This document shows positions 22,053 to 34,617 of a DNA stretch of 35,997 bases, piece by piece. Location: the IMG/VR virus record IMGVR_UViG_3300008107_000410, positions 1 through 35,997 of that record; one strand, 5' to 3'. A program made the translations under genes and the position numbers. The stretch is from a virus. How positions within the stretch are numbered: the stretch's first letter is position 1; the number at the start of each line of letters is the position of its first letter. The notes below the pieces were generated by a model. It did not search any database, was not told where the DNA came from, and was given only the letters and a program-made list of their open reading frames with translations.

Positions 22053-22081
22053 TTGACAATTGTTTCATTTTACTTTAAAAT
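22053..22081 (+). promoter_or_regulatory. Early promoter 1
   Basis: TTGACA (22053-22058), a 17-bp spacer, TAAAAT (22076-22081). An A7 tract precedes the -35. It drives the first early gene at 22134. The expected start of transcription falls at 22087-22088, right at the following hairpin. Confidence 0.82.
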
Positions 22082-22085
22082 TATC

Positions 22086-22111
22086 TTAACAAAATAATTT
22101 TATTTTGTTAA
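22086..22111 (+). ncRNA. Predicted 5'-end hairpin of early transcript 1
   Basis: TTAACAAAATAA (22086-22097), two bases, TTATTTTGTTAA (22100-22111) form a perfect 12-bp inverted repeat, starting 5 nt after the -10 box. A stem of about 10 bp with a 6-nt loop is expected. No T-run follows, so it is not a terminator. Confidence 0.65.
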
Positions 22112-22133
22112 ATTAACTTAAATAAAAAACTAT

Positions 22134-22466
22134 ATGAAAGATAAAACAACCGAAACACTTTTTACTAAAGAATTTCTTGATAACCTTGAATTTTTAATAG
22201 AAAATTGGGATGTTGTAGAAAGTTATGAACAAAGTATTAAATTAATTTATTATTATGATCCTCTACACGGCACCAAGTGTGACAGAGAATTAGAGCAATT
22301 AGCTGAAAAATATGAGGATCTTGTACCAGAACTAGAACGACAAATTAGCGATCATTTTAATATTAATTTTAAACATTTAGAAGAGTTTACACATCATTAT
22401 AGAAATATGAATCTTGAATATGTAGATCTAGAAGCAGAATTAATCGAATATTTGCAAGATTATTAA
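22134..22466 (+). CDS. Very acidic hypothetical protein, first early gene
   Basis: 110 aa with about 27 Asp/Glu against 10 Lys/Arg (net near -17). I recognise no family. The acidity is spread along the chain (CDRELEQLAEKYEDLVPELE; NLEYVDLEAELIEYLQDY), which together with its place as the first gene behind early promoter 1 suggests a DNA-mimic or host-enzyme inhibitor; this is inference only. It starts in AAAAAACTATATG without a Shine-Dalgarno sequence and precedes the methyltransferase gene by 60 bp. Confidence 0.72.
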   Translation: MKDKTTETLFTKEFLDNLEFLIENWDVVESYEQSIKLIYYYDPLHGTKCDRELEQLAEKYEDLVPELERQISDHFNINFKHLEEFTHHYRNMNLEYVDLEAELIEYLQDY

Positions 22467-22470
22467 ATTA

Positions 22471-22500
22471 ACCCCCATCACACCACGAAACAAACCCATT
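22471..22500 (+). repeat. C/A-rich, G-poor intergenic tract (divergent copy)
   Basis: ACCCCCATCACACCACGAAA followed by CAAACCCATT follows the stop of the acidic gene. It resembles the tracts at 24066 and 24441 in composition (C and A, almost no G) rather than base for base. Candidate unstructured Rho-loading or ribosome-standby RNA. Confidence 0.45.
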
Positions 22501-22526
22501 TTAACAACTAACAAGCAAAAAATTAT

Positions 22527-24065
22527 ATGAAAAATTTATTAGATACAATCAAAGAAAATAACCAAGATTTTGAGTTCTACCCAACTACTCAAAAGATGGT
22601 AAATATAATTGCTAACAATATAGGCGAAAGATTATTGACCAAGGGGCGGTTCTTAGATATAGGGGCAGGTAATGGTAATTTTTTTACTAAATTGGCAAAT
22701 TGTGTTGATACTAGCTATTTAGATAAATTTGCAATTGAAAAAAGCCAAATTTTAATAAACCAAATGCCCAGTGATATTGCAATTATAGGGGCAGATTTTC
22801 ATCAGCAAACCTTGATTGACAAAAATTTTGATTGTATATTTTGCAACCCACCATATAGCGAGTTTAAAACTTGGATGCAAAAAATTATAACCGAAACAAA
22901 TTGCAATAATGTTATAATGATAGTGCCAGATAGATGGCAAAAAGACGATGATTTATTAAAATTAATTAAAAAAAGGGATTTTGATTTTCAAATTATCGGT
23001 AATGAAAGTTTTTTAGATGCAGAAAGATCGGCAAGAGCTAATGTTGACATTGTTTATTTTTTTAGATACAAAATTGAAAAAGAAAAATATTATAGAGATA
23101 ACGGAAGAGGTAAAGTAATTGAGCGATCTTTTGTTGATTTTTTTAATGAAAACTTCGCCGACTTATCACAACCAGCAAAAAAGCCCGAAGAGCTAAAAGA
23201 CCAAGTTAAAAATGAACTTGTGGCCGGAAATAATCTAATTGAAAAAATGGTTACCTTGTATAACATAGAATTTAATAATTTATTAGATAGCTTTAAAAGT
23301 TTATCAAAAATTGATGATGCAAGCCTAAAAAATATTGGCATTAATAAAACACAATTGATGATCTCTTTACATGAGCAAATTGATAAATTAAAAAATAAAT
23401 ATTGGCTTCATTTAATACATAATTTAAAAGAATTAGAAACTAGATTGATATTTAGTTTTAAAGAAAAATTATTAAAATCTATTACTCACACTATCGGCAA
23501 CATTGATTTTAACGAAAATAATTGTTATGCTGTTTTAATATGGATTATTAAAAATGCTAATCAATCATTTAACGAGCAATTATTATTTATGTTTGATTTA
23601 TGCATTGAGCCTCATAATGTCAAAAAATACAAATCTAATAAAATGGTTTTTGATACCGAGGAGAGAAACTGGGGATCAAAAGAATTAAAATTTAAAAATA
23701 AAAAAGATGTTAATAAAATTATTTTGGATTATAGAATTATAACCGAAGAGGGATTTTATGATGTGGGATCGAGATATTATAGTTATAATAATGTTACCAA
23801 TGATATCATTAGTTGCTGGGAAGTTATTTGCTATAACTTGCTAGGACATAAAAATTTTGGTGATATTAAATTCTTTAAAAATAGAAATGTGCATTTAAAA
23901 TTTAATATAGAATTTTCAAAAGCTTTCAATATACAGGCAAGCCTTTTAAAAGGTTGGATTAAAGATAAAAGAGAGGCGGTGCAGGAGTTTGAGAATATCA
24001 AAGAAAATGATTTAAATTTTAATTATTTTCAATTTTCTAATAATAAACAAATTTTATTAGATTAA
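22527..24065 (+). CDS. Adenine-specific DNA methyltransferase with DUF4942-type C-terminus
   Basis: 512 aa. The methyltransferase part carries motif I RFLDIGAGNGNFF (about 41-53) for S-adenosylmethionine and the catalytic NPPY motif in DCIFCNPPYSEF (NPPY near 107-110), which marks N6-adenine (or N4-cytosine) methylation. The C-terminal ~270 residues end in a segment with KFFKNRNVHLKFN (compare YKNGN.HL.F) and FNIQASLLKGWIKDKREAVQ, as in phage DUF4942 proteins. It starts 60 bp after the acidic gene. Likely role: protection of phage DNA from host restriction, or control of replication and packaging. Confidence 0.85.
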   Translation: MKNLLDTIKENNQDFEFYPTTQKMVNIIANNIGERLLTKGRFLDIGAGNGNFFTKLANCVDTSYLDKFAIEKSQILINQMPSDIAIIGADFHQQTLIDKNFDCIFCNPPYSEFKTWMQKIITETNCNNVIMIVPDRWQKDDDLLKLIKKRDFDFQIIGNESFLDAERSARANVDIVYFFRYKIEKEKYYRDNGRGKVIERSFVDFFNENFADLSQPAKKPEELKDQVKNELVAGNNLIEKMVTLYNIEFNNLLDSFKSLSKIDDASLKNIGINKTQLMISLHEQIDKLKNKYWLHLIHNLKELETRLIFSFKEKLLKSITHTIGNIDFNENNCYAVLIWIIKNANQSFNEQLLFMFDLCIEPHNVKKYKSNKMVFDTEERNWGSKELKFKNKKDVNKIILDYRIITEEGFYDVGSRYYSYNNVTNDIISCWEVICYNLLGHKNFGDIKFFKNRNVHLKFNIEFSKAFNIQASLLKGWIKDKREAVQEFENIKENDLNFNYFQFSNNKQILLD

Positions 24066-24084
24066 TAATCACCACCTCACCACA
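24066..24084 (+). repeat. C/A-rich intergenic repeat, copy A
   Basis: TAATCACCACCTCACCACA is identical to the copy at 24441-24459. It directly follows the methyltransferase stop codon. The following bases (AACAAACCTA) are also near-identical between copies. C-rich and G-poor RNA is the composition of a Rho-utilisation site. Confidence 0.75.
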
Positions 24085-24124
24085 AACAAACCTAAACTTT
24101 TTTAAAAAAACTTTAAAAAAACAC

Positions 24125-24152
24125 TTGACTAATAAAATTAATTTATTAAAAT
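24125..24152 (+). promoter_or_regulatory. Early promoter 2
   Basis: TTGACT (24125-24130), a 16-bp spacer, TAAAAT (24147-24152), preceded by T6A7 and A7 tracts. It lies behind the methyltransferase and drives the small genes from 24212. Confidence 0.75.
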
Positions 24153-24156
24153 ATAC

Positions 24157-24191
24157 ATAACAAAATTAAAAATGTATTTTGATTTTGTTAT
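24157..24191 (+). ncRNA. Predicted 5'-end hairpin of early transcript 2
   Basis: ATAACAAAAT (24157-24166) and ATTTTGTTAT (24182-24191) form a perfect 10-bp stem around a 15-nt loop that can pair further (AAAAT/ATTTT). It starts 5 nt after the -10 box. The ACAAAAT stem sequence resembles that of hairpin 1. Confidence 0.62.
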
Positions 24192-24211
24192 TAACTTAAA
24201 TAAAAAACTAT

Positions 24212-24439
24212 ATGAAAAAAGAAATTAAAAATTTTTTAAAAGAAAAAAAGGCAGTAAAAATTAATTTTTATTATGATAATTTTGAGAATAATAATGGTTA
24301 TGGTCGCAACTCTTCGCAATGGAAAACCAAAGCCTGCCCTGATTTGTTTGTAAATTTTAAAATAAATAATAAAGATTATAAAGATTTAGAAATTTTATCT
24401 TTTGATGATTTTAAAAATAATTTTGAAGATTTAATTTAG
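24212..24439 (+). CDS. Small hypothetical protein
   Basis: 75 aa (MKKEIKNFLKEKKAVKINFY...), with an N-terminal lysine-rich helix, a central NNNGYGRNSSQWKTKACPDL and an acidic C-terminus (DYKDLEILSFDDFKNNFEDL). No family is recognised. It is the first gene behind early promoter 2, with the leader AACTTAAATAAAAAACTATATG and no Shine-Dalgarno sequence. Confidence 0.6.
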   Translation: MKKEIKNFLKEKKAVKINFYYDNFENNNGYGRNSSQWKTKACPDLFVNFKINNKDYKDLEILSFDDFKNNFEDLI

Positions 24440-24440
24440 C

Positions 24441-24459
24441 TAATCACCACCTCACCACA
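24441..24459 (+). repeat. C/A-rich intergenic repeat, copy B
   Basis: TAATCACCACCTCACCACA, exact copy of 24066-24084, again starting right after a stop codon (the gene ending at 24439). The two copies are separated by one gene plus a promoter cassette, so the whole intergenic cassette may have been duplicated or moved. Confidence 0.75.
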
Positions 24460-24500
24460 CACAAACCTATTTAATAACAATTAACTTAAATAAAACATAT

Positions 24501-24701
24501 ATGAAACTATCTCCCTCACACAAAAGACAACAAACCTTGAAAGTATTTTTTGCCTATTGTTGCGAAACTTATAAAAGGAAGCTTAAAGGCGATGATAAGC
24601 TATTGCAACAAGTTTATAATATTATTGCTAAAATGCACGGCGAGGGTTATATGGAGTTATTTTATGGCAAAATAATTAAACTAATTTACAAAAAATTATA
24701 A
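24501..24701 (+). CDS. Small basic hypothetical protein
   Basis: 66 aa, lysine-rich (MKLSPSHKRQQTLKVFFAYC...), predicted mostly helical, with a CC pair in FAYCCETYKRKL. I recognise no family. It starts behind AACTTAAATAAAACATATATG and is followed 4 bp later by the next gene, so the two are probably co-transcribed. Confidence 0.58.
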   Translation: MKLSPSHKRQQTLKVFFAYCCETYKRKLKGDDKLLQQVYNIIAKMHGEGYMELFYGKIIKLIYKKL

Positions 24702-24705
24702 ATAT

Positions 24706-24999
24706 ATGAATATTATATACAAAGCAACCGTTATTGATAATCTTTATATCAACCAAGAAAGCCGAGATTTTATTGACAAAATGAAGGTAGATGGTTATAA
24801 ATATATAATTTTGTCAAGAAACCAAGATTATTTTGAGTTGGAATTTATGCTGGCAAATGAAACTTATGATGGCATAAAAAATACACTAATTACTAAAAGA
24901 GATAAATATTATTATAATTTATTTGATGAATTTTTAGGTCTATATTATCACGGAAAACATTTTTACCCTAACAATCAACCTGCTTTTAAAAAAAATTAA
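24706..24999 (+). CDS. Hypothetical protein
   Basis: 97 aa, tyrosine-rich (MNIIYKATVIDNLYINQESR..., YKYIILSRNQDYFELEFMLA), with alternating strands and helices and no catalytic motif visible. It lies 4 bp after the previous small gene and 11 bp before the lipoprotein-like gene. The start context is AAATATATG. No function is proposed. Confidence 0.6.
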   Translation: MNIIYKATVIDNLYINQESRDFIDKMKVDGYKYIILSRNQDYFELEFMLANETYDGIKNTLITKRDKYYYNLFDEFLGLYYHGKHFYPNNQPAFKKN

Positions 25000-25010
25000 T
25001 AAATAATTAT

Positions 25011-25307
25011 ATGCAAAAAATAAAAACCTACTTTAATAAAAATAACTTTTCTTTTGAAACTCTTTTTTATAGCGAGTATTCAGGCACATTTACCAAAAAA
25101 AAGCATAAAACTTTAAATAAACTGGTTAAATTTAGCGGTTTTATAACACTTTTTTTAATTATAGCCACTTTATTTTTATTGAGTTCTTGCAAGGAAGAGC
25201 AAATAGAGCCTATTAAAGATGTAGGATCTTCTGTAATTGAAGTTTATAGACAAGATACTAGTAACTTGAAAATGTTTATTTTTAAACAACAAAAATTATT
25301 TAATTAA
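25011..25307 (+). CDS. Candidate lipoprotein
   Basis: 98 aa. After ~40 charged residues comes a hydrophobic segment (FSGFITLFLIIATLFLLSSC) ending in LSSC, which fits the lipobox pattern [LVI][ASTVI][GAS]C, followed by KEEQIEPIKDVGS. Lipid attachment at the Cys would place the short C-terminus in the periplasm. The long pre-signal N-terminus is atypical, but no internal ATG explains it. Small early phage lipoproteins often block superinfection or modify the envelope; that role is inferred. The gene ends 5 bp before a pentapeptide-repeat gene. Confidence 0.6.
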   Translation: MQKIKTYFNKNNFSFETLFYSEYSGTFTKKKHKTLNKLVKFSGFITLFLIIATLFLLSSCKEEQIEPIKDVGSSVIEVYRQDTSNLKMFIFKQQKLFN

Positions 25308-25312
25308 AAACT

Positions 25313-25575
25313 ATGAAAAACAATAAAGATTTTAGTAATCAAAACTTGCAAAATAAAGATTTTAGCGGACAAGATTTAAGCGGAGCTGATTTTAGCGGTG
25401 CTAATTTAAGAGGTGCTGATTTTAGAGGTGCTAATTTAAAAGATGCTAATTTTGAAGGTGCTATTTTACACGGAGCTAATTTTGAAGGTGCTATTTTAAT
25501 AGGTGCTATTTTAGCGGAGCTGATTTTAGAGGGGCTAATTTTAGGTATGCTGATTTAATTGACACAATTCAATAG
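25313..25575 (+). pseudogene. Pentapeptide-repeat protein with a -1 frame break
   Basis: In the start frame, 81 codons end at 25558. Residues 6-65 are clean A(D/N)(L/F)xG repeats (DLSGADFSGANLRGADFRGA), then the sequence turns into AILIGAILAELILEGLILGM. From about 25512 the other frame continues the repeats perfectly as SGADFRGANFRYADLIDTIQ and stops at 25575. One missing base in GGTGCTATTTTAGC (expected GGTGCTAATTTTAGC) explains it. The full protein would be a right-handed beta helix of about 87 aa. Such proteins can mimic DNA, but no specific role is supported. Confidence 0.7.
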
Positions 25576-25592
25576 ATAAAATTTATAAATAT

Positions 25593-25952
25593 ATGAAATA
25601 CGAGCAAAATTTAAAAAAAGTATTATTAACTACCGATTTAATTTATAATAAATTAACAAATAAAAATTTAATAAAAACCATTGAAGATTATAGCATTAAT
25701 TTAAAAAGTAAATTACCTGATGAAGACGGCTTTGCGGAAGTGGTGACTGATTTGTTAGAAAAATGCATAAGTTTAAAAGATATTCCCTTAACAAAATTTT
25801 TTGAGCTTACTAAAAATATTTACCAAGAAGGCAATTTTATTTTTGATACAGCAACAAATCAAGCTATATGCGAAATTGAAGGCAAAACTTGGGAGGAGAT
25901 TGATTATGTAGCAAAATTTACTATAATTAAAAATATTATTGAAAATACTTGA
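25593..25952 (+). CDS. Hypothetical protein
   Basis: 119 aa, helical (MKYEQNLKKVLLTTDLIYNK...; FAEVVTDLLEKCISLKDIPL). No family is recognised. It ends 3 bp after the start of the next promoter (TTGACA at 25949 overlaps the stop), which shows how tightly early operons are packed. The start lies in ATAAATATATG. Confidence 0.62.
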   Translation: MKYEQNLKKVLLTTDLIYNKLTNKNLIKTIEDYSINLKSKLPDEDGFAEVVTDLLEKCISLKDIPLTKFFELTKNIYQEGNFIFDTATNQAICEIEGKTWEEIDYVAKFTIIKNIIENT

Positions 25953-25977
25953 CAATTATTTTTTAATAACTTAAAAT
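25949..25977 (+). promoter_or_regulatory. Early promoter 3
   Basis: TTGACA (25949-25954), a 17-bp spacer, TAAAAT (25972-25977). The spacer is nearly identical to that of the promoter at 31754. It overlaps the stop codon of the previous gene. Confidence 0.82.
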
Positions 25978-25983
25978 TATAAA

Positions 25984-26011
25984 GACGGCAATTTTTAATC
26001 CCCTTGCCGTC
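25984..26011 (+). ncRNA. Predicted 5'-end hairpin of early transcript 3 (conserved loop)
   Basis: GACGGCAA (25984-25991), loop TTTTTAATCCCC, TTGCCGTC (26004-26011). It is a perfect 8-bp stem starting 7 nt after the -10 box, exactly where transcription should begin. The same 12-nt loop caps a different stem at 27160-27191. Confidence 0.78.
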
Positions 26012-26037
26012 AACTTAATAACTTAAATAAAAATTAT

Positions 26038-26244
26038 ATGACAAACGAAACGAAACATTATCTTTTTATTACCAAAATGCCAAACAGAAAAAAATATGGG
26101 ATGTATATAGTTATGAAAAATGATTATGTAAAAGAATATGTGCATTTGGCTTCTTTTAAAAATGAAGATTGTATGTTAAAATTTACAAAAATAATATCAA
26201 CAATTGATAAAATACATTTTGAAGAACCTATAATTAAAACTTAA
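26038..26244 (+). CDS. Small hypothetical protein
   Basis: 68 aa (MTNETKHYLFITKMPNRKKY...), with beta strands followed by a short helix. No family is seen. It is the first gene behind early promoter 3 and hairpin 3, with the leader AACTTAAATAAAAATTATATG. The next gene follows after 13 bp. Confidence 0.58.
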   Translation: MTNETKHYLFITKMPNRKKYGMYIVMKNDYVKEYVHLASFKNEDCMLKFTKIISTIDKIHFEEPIIKT

Positions 26245-26257
26245 AATAAAAAATTAT

Positions 26258-26512
26258 ATGACAAATACAACAATTAAAGCATTTACCTTTTCAGATTATT
26301 TAAAGGAATTTGAAGGTAATTTTAAACCCATTGGTAATTCCGTAAGTAGTTTATTGCTAATCACTGGGCTAGAATTGTCCGAAAAAACTTTGCAAAAAAT
26401 AGTAAATGAAATGGAGTATTTATCAATAAATACTGCAATGACAAATTATTTAAACTTACATAAAGCAATAAAAAATATTTTGGGAGTTGATTTATTAGCT
26501 TTCAATCATTAA
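26258..26512 (+). CDS. Small hypothetical protein
   Basis: 84 aa (MTNTTIKAFTFSDYLKEFEG...), mostly helical, with a SVSSLLLITGLELSEKTLQK segment. No family is recognised. It is in the same run as the gene at 26038 and is followed 11 bp later by the frame-broken YopX-like gene. The start context is AAAATTATATG. Confidence 0.58.
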   Translation: MTNTTIKAFTFSDYLKEFEGNFKPIGNSVSSLLLITGLELSEKTLQKIVNEMEYLSINTAMTNYLNLHKAIKNILGVDLLAFNH

Positions 26513-26523
26513 TAAAAAAACAT

Positions 26524-26746
26524 ATGAAAAAAGATTTAAAAAAAATAATAAAATTTAGAGCTTGGGATAGCTCAACAAAAACAATGATGAGCCACGAGCA
26601 AGTTTTGAGGCATTTTCACGGATGCTATGAAATAGGTTTTGATCCATTCCAAGATGAGCAGATTGACTTTTACAGTTACTCCTGATTTTACAGTAAGAAC
26701 CGATAATATCGCAAAAATAATTGGCAACATTTTTGAAGAAAAATAA
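26524..26746 (+). pseudogene. YopX-like protein broken by a frameshift
   Basis: From the ATG at 26524 the first frame reads MKKDLKKIIKFRAWDSSTKT and stops after 53 aa at 26685; IKFRAWD near the start is the hallmark of phage YopX proteins. The next frame then continues PDFTVRTDNIAKIIGNIFEE to a stop at 26746, and IGNIFEE matches the family's IGNIYEN ending. The two halves meet near 26680 (YSYS / PDF). The centre is also shorter than usual. YopX function is unknown; this copy is probably inactive or recoded. Confidence 0.6.
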
Positions 26747-26747
26747 T

Positions 26748-27137
26748 ATGACAAAATTAACTAGAAAAAAAATAGAAAAAATTTTAAAAAATGGCAAGGC
26801 TTTTGAAAAAAATTCTAATTTTAAAAATCTTGATTTGTCATGTTTTGATTTTAGCGGTTATAACCTTGAAAATTTTGATTTTGAGGGTGCCAATTTGTAT
26901 TATACAAAATTTACAAATTGCAATTTAAAGAATGCTAATTTTAAAGATTGCGATTTAGTTGGGACTTGTTTTGTGTCGGCTAATTTACGAGGGGCTAATT
27001 TTAACCATTACGACGAAACTATTATAAATGCACGAGTTGATTTTAACTATGCTAATTTACGAGGAGCTATATTTAATAAAAACGATAATTCTAATGCTTG
27101 TTATAACAAGACTTATGGTAAAAGCTTGACAACTTAA
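26748..27137 (+). CDS. Pentapeptide-repeat protein
   Basis: 129 aa from the ATG at 26748; the earlier in-frame ATG at 26721 lies inside the YopX-like remnant. After a lysine-rich N-terminus come pentapeptide repeats: NLDLSCFDFSGYNLENFDFE, GANLYYTKFTNCNLKNANFK, DCDLVGTCFVSANLRGANFN and YANLRGAIFNK. These build a right-handed beta helix whose surface can mimic DNA or bind a partner. It has a broken relative at 25313. It is the last gene before early promoter 4. Confidence 0.78.
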   Translation: MTKLTRKKIEKILKNGKAFEKNSNFKNLDLSCFDFSGYNLENFDFEGANLYYTKFTNCNLKNANFKDCDLVGTCFVSANLRGANFNHYDETIINARVDFNYANLRGAIFNKNDNSNACYNKTYGKSLTT

Positions 27138-27154
27138 AATCAAACAATTAAAAT
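27126..27154 (+). promoter_or_regulatory. Early promoter 4
   Basis: TTGACA (27126-27131), a 17-bp spacer, TAAAAT (27149-27154). It overlaps the 3' end of the pentapeptide gene and drives the leader ORF and the replisome-organizer-like gene. Confidence 0.78.
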
Positions 27155-27159
27155 TAACC

Positions 27160-27191
27160 TTGGCAGACTTTTTTAATCCCCAGTCTGCCAA
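27160..27191 (+). ncRNA. Predicted 5'-end hairpin of early transcript 4 (conserved loop)
   Basis: TTGGCAGACT (27160-27169), loop TTTTTAATCCCC (27170-27181), AGTCTGCCAA (27182-27191). It is a perfect 10-bp stem starting 6 nt after the -10 box. The loop equals that of hairpin 3 while the stem differs but stays paired. Confidence 0.8.
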
Positions 27192-27194
27192 ACA

Positions 27195-27201
27195 AAAGGA
27201 G
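27195..27201 (+). promoter_or_regulatory. Strong Shine-Dalgarno AAAGGAG after hairpin 4
   Basis: AAAGGAG lies 3 bases past the hairpin and 5 nt before the ATG at 27207. It is the only clear Shine-Dalgarno sequence noticed in the early region. Confidence 0.7.
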
Positions 27202-27206
27202 CAGTA

Positions 27207-27311
27207 ATGCAAAAAATACAGGAAACAATGCTAATAACAGAGATTGATTTTGCTGATAATCTTATAAAATTAATACAGGATACTCAAAATGACCGACCAA
27301 ACAACAAATAA
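27207..27311 (+). CDS. 34-aa leader ORF overlapping the replication gene
   Basis: MQKIQETMLITEIDFADNLI to a stop at 27311, 34 aa, with a textbook Shine-Dalgarno sequence. It overlaps the ATG of the next gene (27289) by 23 bp in another frame, so ribosomes that finish it could re-start on that gene (translational coupling). It may be a leader peptide or a small functional protein; no family is seen. Confidence 0.55.
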   Translation: MQKIQETMLITEIDFADNLIKLIQDTQNDRPNNK

Positions 27312-28056
27312 GTCTTTTTTACTTTACAAAGACAGCTTATCAATTCTTAAACAACTCACTGACGAAGAGGCTGGCAAGTTATTTAAAGCTATTTACGAAT
27401 ATCAAACAAATAATATTTTACCGCAAGATAGATTGATTACTATTATTTTTGAAACATTTTTAAACCAGTTTAAAAGAGACGATCAAAAGTATCAAAATGT
27501 TATTGAGCGAAACAAAAATAATATTGCCAAAAGGTGGAATAAAATTGATACCAAAAATACCAGTGGTAAAATTGGAATACCAAAAGATACCAAAAATACC
27601 GATAGTGATAGTGATAGTGTTACAGATAAAGATAAAGATATAAATATATCTATATCTAATAAACCTAATAAAGAAATACATGTCGGTTTTGAAAATGATT
27701 TTCAAGAATTATGGCAACACTATACACCAGTAGTTGTAAGCAATGGTAATTTTACAAATAAAGGTTGCAAACAAACTGCTTTAAATTCTTATAAAAAGGC
27801 AAGAGCTAAATTCTCGCATCAAAAAATAATGGATTGTTTAGAATTATACTTGAAAGAGTGCCAAAAGAATAACCGCTTTACTAAAAATGTAGCCACTTGG
27901 ATTAATCAAGCAATGCAAGATGGTTTTAAAACTCACGAAGTTGTGCTAATCAATGCAGAACCGCCGAAACAAGTTTTTTTAACTAAACAACAACAATTGG
28001 AACTTAGACAAAAAGAGCAAGAGGAACGTTTGGCAAAAATTTATAACAACCAGTAA
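27289..28056 (+). CDS. Replisome-organizer-like protein (DUF6291-type N-terminus)
   Basis: 255 aa. The N-terminal ~85 residues (SFLLYKDSLSILKQLTDEEA, GKLFKAIYEYQTNN, FLNQFKRDDQKYQNVIERNK, NNIAKRWNK) fit the small domain at the start of many phage replication proteins. A low-complexity linker (TDSDSDSVTDKDKDINISIS) follows, then a C-terminal part (FQELWQHYTPVVVSNGNFTN, GCKQTALNSYKKARAKF, FTKNVATWINQAMQDG) as in DnaD-like or organizer proteins. It probably loads replication proteins at the phage origin. It has no usable Shine-Dalgarno sequence of its own and starts inside the leader ORF. Confidence 0.72.
   Translation: MTDQTTNKSFLLYKDSLSILKQLTDEEAGKLFKAIYEYQTNNILPQDRLITIIFETFLNQFKRDDQKYQNVIERNKNNIAKRWNKIDTKNTSGKIGIPKDTKNTDSDSDSVTDKDKDINISISNKPNKEIHVGFENDFQELWQHYTPVVVSNGNFTNKGCKQTALNSYKKARAKFSHQKIMDCLELYLKECQKNNRFTKNVATWINQAMQDGFKTHEVVLINAEPPKQVFLTKQQQLELRQKEQEERLAKIYNNQ
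27595..27660 (+). repeat. Short tandem repeats encoding the DSDSDS/DKDKD linker
   Basis: GATAGT repeated three times, GATAAA repeated, then TATATC-type units, directly after two near-copies of a GATACCAAAAATACC unit. It encodes the flexible charged linker of the replication protein. Units of 6 bp keep frame, so length can vary without breaking the gene. Confidence 0.7.
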
Positions 28057-28057
28057 T

Positions 28058-28537
28058 ATGAAAATTTTAGAATTTAAAGTTTTTAAACAAAACTACAACT
28101 TGATAAAAGATAATTTTTTTGCAAGCAAAGAAGAGTCTGATGTTAAAATTATGATGATTTATGAAGCACTAGCCGATAAATTGACTAATAAAATGTTTCA
28201 AGAGCACACTAGCTATATCATACTTAATACAACCACCGAAGAGTGGAATGATGCTTATGGTTATCAAGGTTGCCCTGCTGTTGCCGACTGGTTAAAATCT
28301 TTTTTGCCAAAGAAAATTGAAAAAAGTAAATATGAAATTTGTAAAATTAGCGGAGCTAGATTGGTAACTCATTATCTTGACTTCCCTAATGATTATTTAC
28401 AAGAAATTAAAAACCATCAAAAAAGGTTGCAACTAAATAGCGAAAAAAAACAATTAGAGGGGCAACAAGCAACACAAAATCAAAAAAACATACAAACATA
28501 CATTAAGGCTATTAATACTAACTTAAAATCAAAATAA
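28058..28537 (+). CDS. Hypothetical protein coupled to the replication gene
   Basis: 159 aa (MKILEFKVFKQNYNLIKDNF...), with EEWNDAYGYQGCPAVADWLK in the middle and a glutamine/lysine-rich helical C-terminus (NHQKRLQLNSEKKQLEGQQA). It starts 1 bp after the stop of the replication gene. Position suggests a replication role such as a helicase loader partner, but no motif supports one. Confidence 0.65.
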   Translation: MKILEFKVFKQNYNLIKDNFFASKEESDVKIMMIYEALADKLTNKMFQEHTSYIILNTTTEEWNDAYGYQGCPAVADWLKSFLPKKIEKSKYEICKISGARLVTHYLDFPNDYLQEIKNHQKRLQLNSEKKQLEGQQATQNQKNIQTYIKAINTNLKSK

Positions 28538-28538
28538 T

Positions 28539-28736
28539 ATGATAAATTTTAATGATCCTATTTTTCGCAACAATGATTATGGTAATAATTATCATTCTTC
28601 TAATTTAATTTTGTATTTTTTTTCTATTGTTATTTTAATTTTGTGTGTAATTGCAAGTTTTACTATAAGTCAACACATCCAAAAACAACAATATAAAAAT
28701 AAAAGAAAAGAAATTATAAAAACAATTAATCAATAA
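28539..28736 (+). CDS. Small single-span membrane protein
   Basis: 65 aa with one transmembrane segment (LILYFFSIVILILCVIASFT), a short asparagine-rich N-terminus and a basic C-terminal tail (QKQQYKNKRKEIIKTINQ), which predicts the tail in the cytoplasm. It starts 1 bp after the previous stop, in AAAATAATATG. No function is recognised. Confidence 0.6.
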   Translation: MINFNDPIFRNNDYGNNYHSSNLILYFFSIVILILCVIASFTISQHIQKQQYKNKRKEIIKTINQ

Positions 28737-28748
28737 AATCAAAATAAT

Positions 28749-29249
28749 ATGCAAAATAACTCAGTTAAAATAATAAAAGTAAAAAAATGGTTTTTTAGCT
28801 CTACAAATAAAATTTTAATACAAGCACTTGACGATTGCGAGGCTATATTTGGTGTAGTTGATGATAATGATTGTCTTTTATATAAAGAAATTCATCGAAT
28901 ACAAAAAAATCATGTAAAATATTACAATGATGCAAAAAATCATTTTTTTATTGAAACAGCCAAAAAAGAAAAATGGTTTGGTTGGCACGATAGCCGATCA
29001 GATTATGGCTTTTGTGGTTTTATGCGAACAAATTTATTGCATCAAGTGGTTATTTTAAATAAACTTGGCAATTCTATTAATGTTCCAGTTAATCATAGTT
29101 GCTTTATGTTTTTATTTAAAAGCGATTGGTTTCAAAATTCGGTTCTGCAAAATGGTTTTATTAGTTTTCAATTATACCCGAAATGGTGCTTGGAGGTTAT
29201 AAAAACTAAAAATTATTATCAACCAAAACAATTTTACGAAAAATTATGA
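28749..29249 (+). CDS. Hypothetical protein
   Basis: 166 aa, aromatic-rich (KKWFFSSTNKILIQALDDCE; WFGWHDSRSDYGFCGFMRTN). No catalytic motif that I can place. It overlaps the following gene by 4 bp (ATGA) and lies 12 bp after the membrane protein. Its sequence gives no secretion signal, so it is probably cytoplasmic. Confidence 0.62.
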   Translation: MQNNSVKIIKVKKWFFSSTNKILIQALDDCEAIFGVVDDNDCLLYKEIHRIQKNHVKYYNDAKNHFFIETAKKEKWFGWHDSRSDYGFCGFMRTNLLHQVVILNKLGNSINVPVNHSCFMFLFKSDWFQNSVLQNGFISFQLYPKWCLEVIKTKNYYQPKQFYEKL

Positions 29250-29434
29250 AATACCTTATAAAATCTTATTTAATCTTGCTAATTATATCTTTTGAAACAA
29301 TGTTGTGTTTTGCTTTTACATTTAACAGCACGGCAATGTTTGTGGCGGTAATATTTATCTTTAATGTTTTTTTAATCATTACATATCTTGGCTGTGATTT
29401 AACCATTAATGAAAAAAAAGATCTTGACAATTAA
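29246..29434 (+). CDS. Small two-span membrane protein
   Basis: 62 aa with two hydrophobic segments (SYLILLIISFETMLCFAFTF and MFVAVIFIFNVFLIITYLG) and a short acidic-basic tail. The start overlaps the stop of the previous gene. The following promoter overlaps its 3' end. Function unknown; holin-like size and topology are possible, but the early location argues against a holin. Confidence 0.58.
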   Translation: MKYLIKSYLILLIISFETMLCFAFTFNSTAMFVAVIFIFNVFLIITYLGCDLTINEKKDLDN

Positions 29435-29451
29435 AAATAACTAATTAAAAT
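29424..29451 (+). promoter_or_regulatory. Early promoter 5
   Basis: TTGACA (29424-29429), a 16-bp spacer, TAAAAT (29446-29451). It overlaps the end of the membrane protein gene and drives the first DUF4116 gene. Confidence 0.75.
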
Positions 29452-29455
29452 TTAA

Positions 29456-29504
29456 TTGCCGTTTGCCTATTTACGAATAGATTTGAAAATTAACCAAACG
29501 GCAA
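29456..29504 (+). ncRNA. Predicted 5'-end two-tier hairpin of early transcript 5
   Basis: TTGCCGTTTG (29456-29465) and CAAACGGCAA (29495-29504) form a perfect 10-bp stem. The 29-nt loop holds a second stem, CTATT (29467-29471) TACG AATAG (29476-29480). It starts 5 nt after the -10 box. Its TTGCCG/CGGCAA stem resembles that of hairpin 3. Confidence 0.75.
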
Positions 29505-29528
29505 CTTAACAACTTAAAATAAAAACAT

Positions 29529-29885
29529 ATGACAGAATATACAAACAAAAATCAATTTATTAACGTTTTAAAAAAATTTCAACATAGCTTTACTTTTCGA
29601 TTTGTAAGTCCAGAGTTGAAAAAAAATCGTGAATTTGTCTTGGAAGTGTTAAAAATAAATGGTTTGGTTTTAGAATATGTAAGCCCTGAGTTTCAAGCAG
29701 ATCCCGAGTTGGTTTTGGAAGCAGTTAAGCAAAATGGTGATGCTTTTGAATTTGCAAGCCAAAAATTAAAAGAAAATCGTGAGTTTGTTTTGGAAGCGAT
29801 GGATATAAATTGGAAGGTTTTAAAATATACAAGCGAAGAGTTGCGAATTGCAATTGACGGATTTTTCAAAATTTTTTTAAAATAA
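29529..29885 (+). CDS. DUF4116 repeat protein 1
   Basis: 118 aa. It contains repeats of the DUF4116 type, each roughly 22-24 residues: REFVLEVLKINGLVLEYVSP, ELVLEAVKQNGDAFEFASQK and REFVLEAMDINWKVLKYTSE. The pattern is E-V-L-x-A-hydrophobic ... NG..L.Y.S..L. Repeats of this type form helical solenoids, probably for protein binding. Paralogues lie at 31842 and 33863. Start ATG in AAAAACATATG behind the leader ACTTAAAATAAAA. Confidence 0.75.
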   Translation: MTEYTNKNQFINVLKKFQHSFTFRFVSPELKKNREFVLEVLKINGLVLEYVSPEFQADPELVLEAVKQNGDAFEFASQKLKENREFVLEAMDINWKVLKYTSEELRIAIDGFFKIFLK

Positions 29886-29891
29886 AAACAT

Positions 29892-30083
29892 ATGAAAAAT
29901 ACAACAAAACTTATACAGCCATTATCAAAAAAAATTCAGGAGCAATTAAAAATTGTTGCCGAAGATAAATATAGAATTTATCAAGAATTATCAAAAAATG
30001 AAAAAACAATTCCCAGTAATTTAATTAAACCTATTGCAATTAGTAAAGTTAGCAATTACGAAGATATTTGTTTTTGGCTTTAA
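29892..30083 (+). CDS. Small hypothetical protein
   Basis: 63 aa, helical and lysine-rich (MKNTTKLIQPLSKKIQEQLK...). No family is seen. It lies 6 bp after DUF4116 protein 1 and is followed 31 bp later by the 243-aa unknown gene, so it is probably in the same transcript. Confidence 0.55.
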   Translation: MKNTTKLIQPLSKKIQEQLKIVAEDKYRIYQELSKNEKTIPSNLIKPIAISKVSNYEDICFWL

Positions 30084-30114
30084 TAATTACCAACAACTAA
30101 AAATAAAAAAACAT

Positions 30115-30846
30115 ATGAAAGAACAAAATTATAATTTAAACAATCTTGGCAATACTTTTTATCTTTTTAAAAGAGACGATGAAAAAATGATTGATGATAT
30201 AAAAAAATTTGCATTAAAATACAGAAATAAAGTAGAAAGCGATTTAGGTTTAGATAATACACAAGCTGGTTTTATGCAACAAATTTTAAATAAAAAGATT
30301 TGGGCGGATAAAACATATACTTATAATCAAAATAAAAATAAAAACACTCCTAGAAACTTTTTAGATTTTTTTTTGAGTTGGGGAGCTTTGCCAAAAGATA
30401 AAAGTTTAAATGAAAAATTGATTGCAAAATTTTTAGAAAGCTCTAATCGAATTCCTGAAAATTTAGATGTTTATTTTATTGTAACCAGAGCACAACTTAA
30501 AGATTTACTGGGAGGTCGCTGTTTGGTTGGTGAAATAAAAAAAGAAATGAAACGAGAGCCATTGTCAATCGATATTTTTGATTTAAAAGACAAGTATCAA
30601 TCTAATAAAATTAACGACGAACAATATAAGTATTTTCAAAAAATGGAGCAAAATTTGTTTAGTTTAATAGTTCACGAGGAGTTTTTTAAAACAATTATCA
30701 ATAATTCTGTTGGCAAAAAAAATGAAACAGAATTTTTTATTATGAAAGATTTAATCAAGAATTCTTTAAGAACAAACAAAAATAACCACTTCGGCAACCA
30801 TAATGGTTTTAAGCAAGATTTATGGAAAAATAACAAATTTTTTTAA
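30115..30846 (+). CDS. Hypothetical protein
   Basis: 243 aa from the ATG at 30115 (MKEQNYNLNNLGNTFYLFKR); the earlier start at 30034 overlaps the previous gene and is rejected. Segments such as LDVYFIVTRAQLKDLLGGRC and FLDFFLSWGALPKDKSL show no match I can name. The C-terminus is asparagine-rich (NNHFGNHNGFKQDLWKNN). It ends directly at the A-tract of early promoter 6. Confidence 0.65.
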   Translation: MKEQNYNLNNLGNTFYLFKRDDEKMIDDIKKFALKYRNKVESDLGLDNTQAGFMQQILNKKIWADKTYTYNQNKNKNTPRNFLDFFLSWGALPKDKSLNEKLIAKFLESSNRIPENLDVYFIVTRAQLKDLLGGRCLVGEIKKEMKREPLSIDIFDLKDKYQSNKINDEQYKYFQKMEQNLFSLIVHEEFFKTIINNSVGKKNETEFFIMKDLIKNSLRTNKNNHFGNHNGFKQDLWKNNKFF

Positions 30847-30854
30847 AAAAAAAC

Positions 30855-30883
30855 TTGACAATTTTTTTTGAATAGATTAAAAT
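30855..30883 (+). promoter_or_regulatory. Early promoter 6
   Basis: TTGACA (30855-30860), a 17-bp spacer, TAAAAT (30878-30883), preceded by an A9 tract. It drives recT. Confidence 0.82.
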
Positions 30884-30887
30884 TATA

Positions 30888-30906
30888 TTAGCTAAATTTT
30901 AGCTAA
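30888..30906 (+). ncRNA. Predicted 5'-end hairpin of early transcript 6
   Basis: TTAGCTAAA (30888-30896), one base, TTTAGCTAA (30898-30906): a perfect inverted repeat starting 5 nt after the -10 box. TTAGCTAA is itself palindromic, so it could equally be a protein-binding operator. Confidence 0.55.
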
Positions 30907-30930
30907 ATTAACAATTTAAAATTTAAATAT

Positions 30931-31734
30931 ATGAAAATAGAAAATGAAATAAAAAATACAGAAAGTGTAGAAAATACAGAAAGTGTAGAAAATACAGAAA
31001 TTCAATCAAAACAACTTAAACCTGCTGAAAAAATTACGGCACTTTTAAAAGACAAATTACAAGAATTTTTAGGTCAAGATACAAACAGATATGTAAAATC
31101 TGTAATGTCAGAAATTTTAAAACAAAATTTAACAGATTGCACTCCGTTGTCAATTTTTCAGTCAGTAAAACAAGCAGTAGATTTGGGATTGGAAATTGAT
31201 AATAGACAACATGCTCACTTGATTCAAAGAGGAAGAGATTGCACTTTTATGATCGGTTATCGTGGTTTTATTTACTCAATTAAAAAACATATTCCAAGTG
31301 CTAATATAGTAGTTAATTTAGTAAAAGACGGAGATTTATTTTCTATAAAAAAAATAGGAGATCAAGATCAATTTATTCACGAAATAAAAAATCCTTTTGC
31401 TAGTAAAGATAAAATAATTGGTGGTTATTGTTATATATCATATAACAACGAAGGAAGGGAAATTGCAAAAATTGAAACACTTTCCATTGAAGAAATTAAC
31501 AAAATTAGAAGTGTCGCAAAAACAAAAAATATATGGGATGCTTGGTTTGAAGAGAAAGCAAAAGTTGCCTGTATTCGCAGAGGTTGTAAAATTTTATTTG
31601 CTGGATTAAATAATGGAATAATAAATAAAATTATTGAAATTAATGACGAAGAATTTGATTTTGAAGAAAAAAAACCTAAAAAAGAAAATAAATTATCAAA
31701 AATTTTTATACCATTAAAAGCGCCAGTTGAGTAA
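30931..31734 (+). CDS. recT: RecT family single-strand annealing protein
   Basis: 267 aa. The core LTDCTPLSIFQSVKQAVDLG, then IDNRQHAHLIQRG, CTFMIGYRGFIYSIKKH and DAWFEEKAKVACIRRGCKIL are RecT hallmarks (P.S...A...A..LGL..., the Q/GYRG strand, the MA.KTA.RR.C-like helix). It anneals ssDNA during replication-coupled recombination, paired here with the exonuclease at 32362. The N-terminus holds an in-frame tandem repeat (NTESVE x2, 18-bp units at 30955-30990). A lysine-rich C-terminus follows the core. It is the only gene behind promoter 6. Confidence 0.9.
   Translation: MKIENEIKNTESVENTESVENTEIQSKQLKPAEKITALLKDKLQEFLGQDTNRYVKSVMSEILKQNLTDCTPLSIFQSVKQAVDLGLEIDNRQHAHLIQRGRDCTFMIGYRGFIYSIKKHIPSANIVVNLVKDGDLFSIKKIGDQDQFIHEIKNPFASKDKIIGGYCYISYNNEGREIAKIETLSIEEINKIRSVAKTKNIWDAWFEEKAKVACIRRGCKILFAGLNNGIINKIIEINDEEFDFEEKKPKKENKLSKIFIPLKAPVE
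30955..30999 (+). repeat. 18-bp tandem repeat in recT
   Basis: AATACAGAAAGTGTAGAA occurs at 30955-30972 and 30973-30990, followed by half a copy. It encodes NTESVE repeats in the disordered N-terminus and keeps frame when copy number changes. Confidence 0.8.
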
Positions 31735-31753
31735 AATATTTTTAAAAAAATAC

Positions 31754-31782
31754 TTGACAATTATTTTTTAATAATTTAAAAT
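31754..31782 (+). promoter_or_regulatory. Early promoter 7 (no hairpin)
   Basis: TTGACA (31754-31759), a 17-bp spacer, TAAAAT (31777-31782), preceded by T5A7. The spacer is almost the same as in promoter 3. No inverted repeat is seen after it; instead a C/A-rich G-free leader (ACACCACAAACACACCAC) follows. Confidence 0.82.
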
Positions 31783-31841
31783 TATTACACCACAAACACA
31801 CCACAAAAAAAACTCAATTAACAACTAAAAATAAAAAAAAT

Positions 31842-32330
31842 ATGAAAATAACAGATAAAAACGAAATATTAGAAAAAGTAAAACGATGTGCTTGTAGTTT
31901 CGAAAATGCTAGCGAGGACTTGCGAGATGATATGGAATTTGTAAAAGAGGTACTCAAAATAGATGGTAGCGCTTTAAGGTATGTTAGTGATAGATTACGA
32001 GATAATGAAGAGATTGTAAAACTTGCAGTTAAGACAAATGGTTGGGCTTTACAATCTGTTGGTGAGAAGTTTAAAAATAATCGTGAAATAGTTTGGGAAG
32101 CGGTAAAGACATGTGGCGAGGCTTTACAATTTACTGGTGAGAAGTTTAAAAATGATATAGAATTAGTCTTGGAAGCAGTTTGGCAAAATGGTAAGGCTTT
32201 ACAATATGCTGGTGAGGAGTTCCGAAAAGATATAAAAGCAATGAAGAAAGCACTTCTTTATTTGAAAATACAAACACTTTGCGGACAATTGAGAAAGCAA
32301 GAATATGAGGTAAATGTTAAGGGTTATTAA
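31842..32330 (+). CDS. DUF4116 repeat protein 2
   Basis: 162 aa with about five DUF4116 repeats: MEFVKEVLKIDGSALRYVSD, EIVKLAVKTNGWALQSVGEK, EIVWEAVKTCGEALQFTGEK and ELVLEAVWQNGKALQYAGEE. Repeats are more regular than in protein 1 (29529) and carry the LRDN/FKN spacer. It lies behind promoter 7 and before the exonuclease gene, so it is expressed with the recombination module. A scaffold or adaptor role is inferred. Confidence 0.75.
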   Translation: MKITDKNEILEKVKRCACSFENASEDLRDDMEFVKEVLKIDGSALRYVSDRLRDNEEIVKLAVKTNGWALQSVGEKFKNNREIVWEAVKTCGEALQFTGEKFKNDIELVLEAVWQNGKALQYAGEEFRKDIKAMKKALLYLKIQTLCGQLRKQEYEVNVKGY

Positions 32331-32361
32331 CAAAAATTATTTAACTAAAAATTTAAAAAAT

Positions 32362-33390
32362 ATGAAAGAAAACTTTTTTACAAATAGACAAGGGGCAATT
32401 GGAGCTTCACAAATAGCAGGATTAGTTCATTACTACTCCGATAAATTGCTTGCTAAAAATATTATTAGCCAAGAAACTTACAATGAAATTAAGAAAATGG
32501 AGGAGGTTTCTGTTAATGTTTGGAAGCAAGAAATGTCCGACATAAAATACATTGAAAGCCCGTGGAGTATCAAAGAAAAAATAAAACTAACCGCCGAAGA
32601 GTTAGAATTATTAAGTAAAAAAACAAGCAATAATAACACCAAGCGAGGTAATGAATTAGAGCGACCAGTTTTTGATAAATTTTTACAGCATTCGAAAAAT
32701 CGGAATAATAATTGCAAAGAAGTCGCAGGTTATGATAAAAAAGCTAGCAAGCAATACAAAAATTTTAAGGCAATTGCAACTATTGATTTTTTAGTTACTG
32801 TTGACGAAATTTCTGTTCCTATTTACGATTTTGAAACTAATTCGCCTATAACCGATACGACTGATTCTGTTGCATTAAATAAAGAATACATTGTCGAAAT
32901 TAAAACTAAAAATACAAGTTTAGATGCAGTTGGCAACCCAGTAAAAGAAAAGATTAATTGGATAAGCTATAAATTGCAAGTAGCTATGCAAATGGCTTTA
33001 CATAAGATTGATAATGCAGTTATTGTATTACAACAAGTGGCAACAAGGGATAAAGAACACGATATGAGTGCCGAGCTAGATATTGAAGCTATGATTATTG
33101 ATTGCGAAGAAGACAAAGAATTGATTGTTGCCGTTGAAAAAGTTTTAAAGTATTTTGATGCAGATTTTAACAATGATTTTAAGCCACAACCTGAACTTAA
33201 AAAAGATGTTGAGTTATTAGAATTTTTAGCTAGAAAGGAACTTATAATGGACTTGCCAAGCGAATTAAACAACGATATAGCCGAAATGAGCCAGTTAGAA
33301 GCTAATTATAATAGATACTGCGAATTAAAAGATAAAGTAGAAAAAACATTAAAAACTATTGCAACCGAAAATCAAAGATCTGTCATTTAA
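32362..33390 (+). CDS. YqaJ-type viral recombination exonuclease
   Basis: 342 aa from the ATG at 32362; the start at 32314 overlaps the previous gene. It shows the family's order: GAIGASQIAGLV (about 11-22), KRGNELERPVF (about 94-104, acidic residue near 98), ATIDFLV (Asp near 142), EYIVEIKTKN (Glu near 179, Lys 181) and SYKLQVAMQMALHK (Gln 206, 210). These are the E, D, ExK and Q residues of lambda-exo/YqaJ 5'-3' exonucleases. It makes ssDNA for RecT. The C-terminal ~80 residues are helical. Confidence 0.85.
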   Translation: MKENFFTNRQGAIGASQIAGLVHYYSDKLLAKNIISQETYNEIKKMEEVSVNVWKQEMSDIKYIESPWSIKEKIKLTAEELELLSKKTSNNNTKRGNELERPVFDKFLQHSKNRNNNCKEVAGYDKKASKQYKNFKAIATIDFLVTVDEISVPIYDFETNSPITDTTDSVALNKEYIVEIKTKNTSLDAVGNPVKEKINWISYKLQVAMQMALHKIDNAVIVLQQVATRDKEHDMSAELDIEAMIIDCEEDKELIVAVEKVLKYFDADFNNDFKPQPELKKDVELLEFLARKELIMDLPSELNNDIAEMSQLEANYNRYCELKDKVEKTLKTIATENQRSVI

Positions 33391-33397
33391 TGTGCAA

Positions 33398-33538
33398 ATG
33401 ACACTTCCTACAAAATGGAGTGCCGATGATATAGTTAAAAAACAAAATGCTACTAAACAAGATTATGAAGCTAGTTTATTACTTGCCGAAGGCAGTGTCA
33501 AAACAAAATCAATGTTTAAATTAATTAAAAGCAAATAG
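33398..33538 (+). CDS. Small hypothetical protein
   Basis: 46 aa (MTLPTKWSADDIVKKQNATK...). It starts 7 bp after the exonuclease stop and ends 1 bp before the next ATG at 33540, so it fills the gap exactly and is likely a real gene. No family is recognised. A short helical protein is suggested. Confidence 0.5.
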   Translation: MTLPTKWSADDIVKKQNATKQDYEASLLLAEGSVKTKSMFKLIKSK

Positions 33539-33539
33539 T

Positions 33540-33860
33540 ATGAAAGAACAAACAATAATAAATACTACAAAAACCACTTTAATTGTCGAAGAAACTAAAT
33601 ATAATGTTATAATTAATACAGAAACTTTTTTTGTTTCTATATTAAAAGATATTTTTAGTATTTTTATGCTTTTATCTGCATTATGGTTTAATTATAATTT
33701 TCTTGGCAATAGTTATATTATGATATTTATAATAATTTTAATGCTTTTTGGTTATAGTGCCAAACTGGTTTTTATTTTTTTAAAAAGTGACAAATATTTT
33801 TTTAATGTATCTTATGATAATATAGAAAAAATAAAAAAAATACTTAAACAACAACAATAA
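33540..33860 (+). CDS. Two-span membrane protein
   Basis: 106 aa with two transmembrane segments (VSILKDIFSIFMLLSALWF and YIMIFIIILMLFGYSAKLVF) and a lysine-rich C-terminal tail. No family is recognised. It lies 1 bp after the 46-aa gene and 2 bp before the third DUF4116 gene, in the same transcript as the exonuclease. Confidence 0.6.
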   Translation: MKEQTIINTTKTTLIVEETKYNVIINTETFFVSILKDIFSIFMLLSALWFNYNFLGNSYIMIFIIILMLFGYSAKLVFIFLKSDKYFFNVSYDNIEKIKKILKQQQ

Positions 33861-33862
33861 CT

Positions 33863-34348
33863 ATGAAAAAACAAGAGCCAATCACAACTGAAAAAACAAG
33901 AGCCAATCACATAATAAATAAAGAAAAAATATTAGAATTTTTAAAAAAAAATAATGTAAAAAAATGGGTGGCAGAATATCTTACTCCTGAAATGTTAGAT
34001 GATAGAAATTTTGTTTTAGAACTTGTAAGAATTGATGGTGGTATTTTAAAATATGTTAGTTCTAAGTTGCGAGACGATTATGAAATAGTTGTAGAGGCAA
34101 TCAAACAATCTGTTTTAGGTTCTCCTTTTGAATTTGCAAGCCCTAGGTTGCAAGAAAACAAAGAGATTGTTTTAATGGCAAGCAACAAAAGTTACACAAA
34201 TTTAAAATATGCAAGCCCTGTGTTAAAAGCAGATATAGAATTTATTAAAGAGGCGATGAAACAAGATTTTAATTGCTTAACTTATGCTGAACCTAGACTA
34301 AGAAAACAAATAATGGATGATTTTTTTTTAACAATTAACCAACAATAA
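33863..34348 (+). CDS. DUF4116 repeat protein 3
   Basis: 161 aa. DUF4116-type units: RNFVLELVRIDGGILKYVSS, EIVVEAIKQSVLGSPFEFAS, EIVLMASNKSYTNLKYASPV and EFIKEAMKQDFNCLTYAEPR. Unit lengths vary more than in paralogue 2. The N-terminus holds a directly repeated 12-residue-like stretch (KKQEPITTEKTRANH). Start context AATAACTATG. It is part of the small-gene run after the exonuclease. Confidence 0.72.
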   Translation: MKKQEPITTEKTRANHIINKEKILEFLKKNNVKKWVAEYLTPEMLDDRNFVLELVRIDGGILKYVSSKLRDDYEIVVEAIKQSVLGSPFEFASPRLQENKEIVLMASNKSYTNLKYASPVLKADIEFIKEAMKQDFNCLTYAEPRLRKQIMDDFFLTINQQ

Positions 34349-34350
34349 TT

Positions 34351-34545
34351 ATGAAAAAACAATTACTAATCACAACCGATTTACAAAGCGAAGATCTTTA
34401 TAAAGATTTAACAAATTATGCAAAAGAAAACGAACGATCTTTTGCTTTTATTGTAAGAAAAGCTTTGGAAGAGTTTTTAAATAAAGAAAAAAAAGAACCT
34501 CATTCTTTAAATTGGGAACCGACAGAAAAAAAATCTAAAATTTAA
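34351..34545 (+). CDS. Ribbon-helix-helix (CopG/Arc-like) DNA-binding protein
   Basis: 64 aa. A short strand (QLLITTDL) is followed by a helix (SEDLYKDLTNYAKENER) and then SFAFIVRKALEEFLNKEK, matching the RHH pattern of L...A...G.S....IR.AL..FL. The last 20 residues are charged and disordered. Two subunits would bind a short inverted repeat in DNA. It is the only recognisable sequence-specific regulator besides the terminase HTHs, so it is a candidate repressor or activator of the hairpin-headed early promoters; this link is inferred. Confidence 0.68.
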   Translation: MKKQLLITTDLQSEDLYKDLTNYAKENERSFAFIVRKALEEFLNKEKKEPHSLNWEPTEKKSKI

Positions 34546-34567
34546 TAAATTAAAAAAATAATTAAAT

Positions 34568-34615
34568 ATGATAACAGAAAAAAGACTTTCTTTTTTAAAA
34601 ATTAACCAAGAATAA
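34568..34615 (+). pseudogene. Truncated copy of the gene at 34875
   Basis: MITEKRLSFLKINQE, 15 codons. The first residues repeat the start of the protein at 34875 (MITEKKLRFLEEQ), and the DNA ATGATAACAGAAAAAA is shared. It stops 2 bp before the next ATG. Probably a remnant of gene duplication. Confidence 0.5.
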
Positions 34616-34617
34616 CT

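Follow-up and report, generated by a model that had tools for sequence, protein, structure and literature searches.

Promoter-proximal hairpins carry one conserved loop on unrelated stems in a clade of tailed phages

Why would a phage keep one loop sequence unchanged on hairpins whose stems have nothing in common? The question is raised by a 35,997-nt virus record of an uncultivated tailed phage, which was analysed over its whole length and is called the window below. Up to ~21.9 kb the minus strand encodes terminase, portal, head and capsid proteins, and from 22.1 kb onward the plus strand carries the early genes. An original prediction, made from the sequence, placed two hairpins with one loop and differing stems among these early genes and read them as a structured RNA with a functional loop. 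Here we describe the exact form and the setting of the two hairpins, their copies in related phages and the leaders of the whole clade, and we weigh what the stems and the loop may each be doing.

Results

Both hairpins are present exactly where they had been placed, at 25984-26011 (hairpin 1) and 27160-27191 (hairpin 2) on the plus strand. Read from the sequence, hairpin 1 is GACGGCAA-TTTTTAATCCCC-TTGCCGTC and hairpin 2 is TTGGCAGACT-TTTTTAATCCCC-AGTCTGCCAA; the stems, of 8 and 10 bp, are perfect and unrelated in sequence, and the 12-nt loops (25992-26003 and 27170-27181) are identical. The loop 12-mer occurs exactly twice in the window with no third site at up to one mismatch, and its count alone is only mildly unusual, 12 of 100 shuffles having reached two matches when one mismatch was allowed. 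Unlike this count, the combination of a stem with a shared loop is rare: perfect stems of at least 8 bp that contain 3 or more G/C and enclose 8-14 nt of loop occur at three sites in the window, hairpins 1 and 2 among them, and none of 20 simulated windows held two such hairpins with a common loop. RNA folding of each hairpin alone gave −12.0 kcal/mol (z = −4.6) for hairpin 1 and −15.6 kcal/mol (z = −3.1) for hairpin 2. The rarity that had been claimed for CCCC was overstated, the plus strand of the window having CCCC 22 times and GGGG 21 times; it is AATCCCC that is confined to the two hairpins. No covariance model of Rfam 15 matched the window at the gathering score, and in E-value mode the best sub-threshold match scored 17.8 bits against a cut-off of 56. 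We rejected a reading of the hairpins as intrinsic terminators, as neither stem has a T-run behind it and neither was picked by a terminator scan, which covered loops of up to 8 nt.

Each hairpin is preceded by a TTGACA-N17-TAAAAT promoter found by a consensus scan (25949-25977 for hairpin 1, with 11 of 12 matches, and 27126-27154 for hairpin 2) and begins 5-6 nt past the end of its -10 hexamer. Since transcription from sigma-70 promoters is expected to start ~5-6 nt past this hexamer, the spacing makes both hairpins appear to begin at about +1 of the mRNA. Hairpin promoters of the N4 type were considered and rejected, as the promoters are of the sigma-70 type with the hairpins downstream of them, and as no ORF of the window exceeds 518 aa, which is too short to encode a virion RNA polymerase. 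Behind hairpin 1, a 26-nt leader (26012-26037), A/U-rich, unstructured and without a Shine-Dalgarno sequence, leads to a gene of 68 aa (26038-26244) that has no PHROG or Pfam family. The leader of hairpin 2 is short (15 nt, 27192-27206) and contains AAAGGAG, the sole clear Shine-Dalgarno sequence among the 28 early genes listed (window 22053-35902, plus strand); the other 27 have none that is clear, and their leaders follow a stereotyped A/U-rich pattern, for example TTAACTTAAATAAAAACTATATG. This scarcity suggests that translation in the host starts mostly without pairing to a Shine-Dalgarno sequence. The operon of hairpin 2 is headed by a small ORF of 34 aa (27207-27311), of which relatives have longer, variable versions, and continues with a DUF6291 protein gene (27289-28056; Pfam PF19808, E 1.7e-18), a probable replication-initiation gene.

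When IMG/VR was scanned for the promoter plus the loop, the same hairpins turned up in three close relatives, L003, L006 and L007; L012 and L032 came from protein searches and L107 from looser patterns, so that the expectation of further copies behind TTGACA promoters was borne out. Hairpin 1 is identical in the window, L003 and L007, and its promoter is kept as well. Hairpin 2 differs slightly among its orthologues: in L003 the loop is shorter by one T, in L012 the loop has C for T and one pair is broken, and in L107 there is one G-U pair and the loop has C for T plus one extra T. L032 provided hairpin 3, TTGTGTAGGCA-TTCAATCCCC-TGCCTACACAA, which has a third unrelated stem and sits before a DUF4116 gene, ~65 nt past its -10 box. 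In L032 the leader at 3855-3965 (minus strand) has three stable hairpins in a row (−31.7 kcal/mol, z −6.9), of which the CCCC-loop hairpin is the last, and it may be a larger structured RNA.

A covariance model recovered the same copy set at E <=6e-5 and gave no further match above chance in the clade, although both the model and the alignment used for counting were built from these same copies. Its matches in L154, L155 and L034 were weak (E 1.1-3.8) and were rejected. When IMG/VR was scanned with a looser promoter-plus-AATCCCC pattern, nearly all matches listed were chance matches with no stem around the loop; the true new copies among them were L107 and, only with a relaxed -35, the record of L012, and L160, L167 and L169 were inspected and rejected as copies. 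The promoter-plus-AATCCCC pattern matched nowhere in the GTDB genomes, and a scan of the same genomes with a terminase profile, from whose alignment one row was dropped for a stop codon, found no relative and thus identified no host. A blastn search of both leaders against phages and plasmids returned weak AT-rich chance matches only.

What follows the hairpins changes more than the hairpins do. Hairpin 1 and its promoter stand before three different genes in the window, L003 and L007, with the same gene upstream, and hairpin 2 is nearly unchanged in L107 despite downstream genes of another family, where a DUF1376 gene and, behind it, an IstB/DnaC-like ATPase take the place of DUF6291. On these gene arrangements, the hairpin element outlives its neighbouring genes.

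Among the copies, the weak model matches being excluded from the counts, seven of the eight stem pairs show two-sided changes, against 1.5 in shuffles; 98% of the pair cells are paired in the true copies, and sliding the partner abolishes the signal. The original prediction had staked itself on copies in relatives with covarying stems, and such copies exist, with the third stem in L032 and the two-sided changes at seven of eight pairs. The covariation lies between three paralogous hairpin families, so that the number of independent stems is in effect three. From one orthologue to the next the stems scarcely vary, the differences being one G-U change and one broken pair, with no compensatory change; the idea that both stem halves changed together around a fixed loop thus holds between the three families and does not extend to the orthologues. 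That the stems of hairpin 2 hardly vary between orthologues may mean that the stem sequence is also important. The loop follows another pattern. Its length ranges from 10 to 13 nt and its 5' half varies (T4-5, T/C), while the AATCCCC core is invariant in 7 distinct copies on three unrelated stems. An RNA thermometer and self-pairing of the loop in a kissing-loop interaction were both considered and rejected: UUAA is the one self-complementary stretch, and the UUCAAUCCCC variants no longer have it.

Shared ancestry might account for the constant loop if one leader was copied and its stems were later rebuilt, the hairpins merely protecting the mRNA and the loop being unread. All known copies do belong to one group of related phages, and the clade has many hairpins that are not specific in their loops, but the 7-nt core stays unchanged across three unrelated stems when the spacer and the leader outside the hairpin differ too, and the variation in the 5' half of the loop argues that the core is selectively held. 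We regard shared ancestry as an unlikely explanation. The pattern of conservation bears also on a DNA-level element, in which the inverted repeat would serve as an operator, a single-strand replication origin or a recombination site. Inverted repeats near promoters are often operators, and hairpin 2 lies ahead of a probable replication operon, but unrelated arms around a conserved asymmetric centre are the opposite of a protein-bound palindrome, the arm spacing differs between copies along with the loop length, and the orientation is always sense, between promoter and start codon. Of all the readings weighed here we give this one the least credence.

To place the two hairpins in their wider setting, which was absent from the original prediction, a survey took all TTGACA/TA(A/T)AAT promoters of the clade. 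Of the 35 intergenic promoters that the clade has, 25 are directly followed by a significant hairpin, as against 9 of 66 in other viruses (Fisher p 8e-9, the true p being weaker because the clade promoters include orthologues, which are not independent, and the comparison set having been gathered with a pattern that contains AATCCCC). Measured over 21 hairpins, the stem begins at a median of 6 nt past the -10 box (0-8, with one exception at 65) and ends at a median of 23 nt ahead of the ATG (15-29); the stretch from stem to ATG is predicted to be unpaired behind hairpin 1, and its start region to be weakly paired behind hairpin 2. Besides hairpins 1 and 2, the plus strand of the window has start-of-transcript hairpins at 22086-22111 (TTAACAAAATA/TATTTTGTTAA, with another loop), at 29456-29504 (TTGCCGTTTG/CAAACGGCAA, with a long loop, before a DUF4116 gene and kept in L003 and L012) and at 30888-30906 (TTAGCTAA/TTAGCTAA, before recT), while three promoters of the window have no hairpin or a weak one. 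As judged from promoter positions and predicted folds, promoters in this clade of phages as a rule have a hairpin of their own at the transcript start. The hairpins are real and conserved, and more general than had been reported. If such a hairpin is a rule of the clade, the job of the stem is probably generic and only the loop is special to the AATCCCC copies.

Some of these leaders have features of their own. The stem ATCAAG/CTTGAT recurs with differing loops of 4-6 nt (L107 6615-9000, L015 464 and L032 7316), and in these sequences a kept stem with a changing loop is the mirror image of the CCCC class; stems that recur with loops and spacings of various length are what would be expected of RNA hairpins. 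The long loop of the hairpin at 29456-29504 is conserved in the window, L003 and L012, contains CTATTTACGAATAG and possibly represents a second loop class. At 31754-31840 of the window lies a promoter without a hairpin; its transcript start has a direct repeat instead, ACACCACAAACACACCACAAA, which is conserved unchanged in L011 and L012.

Discussion

We propose that the hairpins are 5'-terminal mRNA stem-loops in which the stem protects the mRNA, and that the loop of a subset docks a shared trans partner; we give this reading a probability of about one half. The sigma-70-type promoters would fire so that the RNA begins in or beside the first stem bases, and the stem would then hide the 5' end from pyrophosphohydrolase and 5'-end-dependent ribonucleases, making the message longer-lived. 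The ~23 unstructured A/U-rich nt after the stem would keep the start codon open for ribosomes that initiate mostly independently of Shine-Dalgarno sequences. Protection of this kind would need pairing alone, leaving the stems freely replaceable. In the subset formed by hairpins 1 and 2 and by hairpin 3 in L032, the apical loop UUYAAUCCCC is held constant, most likely because it docks one partner that reads single strands and would co-regulate the operons; this partner may be an RNA of the host, or an RNA-binding protein of either phage or host.

RppH and RNase E require single-stranded 5' ends, which explains how 5' structures stabilise messages (reviewed in PMC3997798). Stems of free sequence at +1, followed by an open leader of constant length, fit such 5'-end blocking. 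The stem-loops of ompA and papA in E. coli and of aprE in Bacillus likewise have a stem at or near the 5' end and then a single-stranded ribosome-binding region (PMC3997798), and by their anatomy the phage hairpins would work like those of ompA and papA, with stabilisation presumed. The difference is one of scale and design, as those stem-loops belong to single genes, whereas here nearly the whole early promoter set is equipped, with different stems and with a subset that has a fixed loop. Single stabilising 5' hairpins are thus already known, and what would be new is a different hairpin on most early messages of one phage lineage; we found no description of this leader design among the open-licence papers searched. 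If the reading is right, such hairpins, set at a near-constant distance from the start codon, would amount to a design, spread over the genome, by which RNA survives inside infected cells, and the leaders would supply natural interchangeable parts.

Protection of the 5' end leaves two things to be accounted for. A pure 5'-cap role does not explain hairpin 3 of L032 at its distance from the putative -10 box, and it leaves the constant loop unexplained, for which a trans partner reading AAUCCCC is the best explanation. The AATCCCC-loop subset, which heads a putative replication operon and accessory genes, probably binds such a shared partner, as far as the sequences tell. Of the original idea of a structured RNA with a functional loop, the structured element and its conserved loop stand, and a loop partner was not found: the search that had been proposed for one came back, within the window, with GGGGATT only as the reverse complement of hairpins 1 and 2. 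The partner may be a protein or an RNA.

An RNA partner would act by base pairing: AAUCCCC would pair either with a host RNA that has GGGGAUU or with the ribosome, and translation or decay would be switched in this way. Precedents exist in Staphylococcus, where RNAIII, RsaE and the icaR 3' UTR have a single-stranded UCCCC that can pair with G-rich sites, including ribosome-binding sites (PMC3868564), and C-rich leaders can raise translation in vitro, as proposed via pairing with 16S rRNA (PMC3310771). Here, by contrast, the motif is part of mRNA leaders, and the window yielded no G-rich partner for it. The rRNA of E. coli contains GGGGAU, not GGGGAUU, and the 27 of 28 early genes listed that have no clear Shine-Dalgarno sequence would not offer the G-rich target that such pairing uses. 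We consider a base-pairing target improbable.

The position of the hairpins, close to promoters and ahead of early operons, would also suit an antitermination element of early transcripts, loaded at early operon starts as HK022 put RNA or lambda nut/boxB are. Elements of the lambda type have a fixed loop on a changeable stem near early promoters, and the phage hairpins share this logic; they differ in that the loop is much longer, boxA is missing (the window has 4 boxA-like matches against 7.1 expected, none near either hairpin) and no N-like or other antiterminator gene was recognised among the proteins scanned, which were part of the set and include many early proteins without a family. In HK022 an RNA structure likewise lies close behind the phage early promoters, with putL just downstream of its own, but put is ~70 nt long and forms two stem-loops of conserved sequence (PMC9378689), as compared with one hairpin of 28-33 nt here (28-32 nt in each window leader). 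Antitermination seems to us very improbable.

For a kept loop on changing stems, the closest phage precedent is the gp43 operator of T4 and RB69, a leader hairpin before a replication gene in which the loop is kept between relatives and the distal stem differs (PMC3014915). That operator overlaps the ribosome-binding site, serves one gene and has a stem top that is also conserved, whereas the hairpins described here have loops of 10-13 nt and unrelated stems and serve several operons. An operator of the gp43 type is bound by the phage DNA polymerase that it regulates, and no DNA polymerase family was recognised among the proteins scanned.

Going one step further, we offer as a tentative possibility, on the doubtful side, that an undescribed RNA-binding protein or RNA recognises its targets by the AAUCCCC loop, a code grafted on clade-wide protective hairpins with interchangeable stems, and that this RNA regulon would co-regulate replication and accessory operons after infection. 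Unrelated stems with one fixed loop make a compact and testable motif of 7 invariant bases, and through its partner a new RNA-binding factor, of the phage or of the host, could come to light.

Some other genes of these phages deserve a brief description. DUF4116 repeat proteins are encoded by several separate early genes, at 29529-29885, 31842-32330 and 33863-34348 in the window and at 3363-3854 in L032, one DUF4116 gene of L032 being the gene behind hairpin 3. Pentapeptide-repeat-like ORFs occur in the window at 25313-25558 and 26721-27137, and the former seems, from its sequence, to be frame-shifted at its end (ADFSGANLRGADF.. to ..LILEGLILGMLI).
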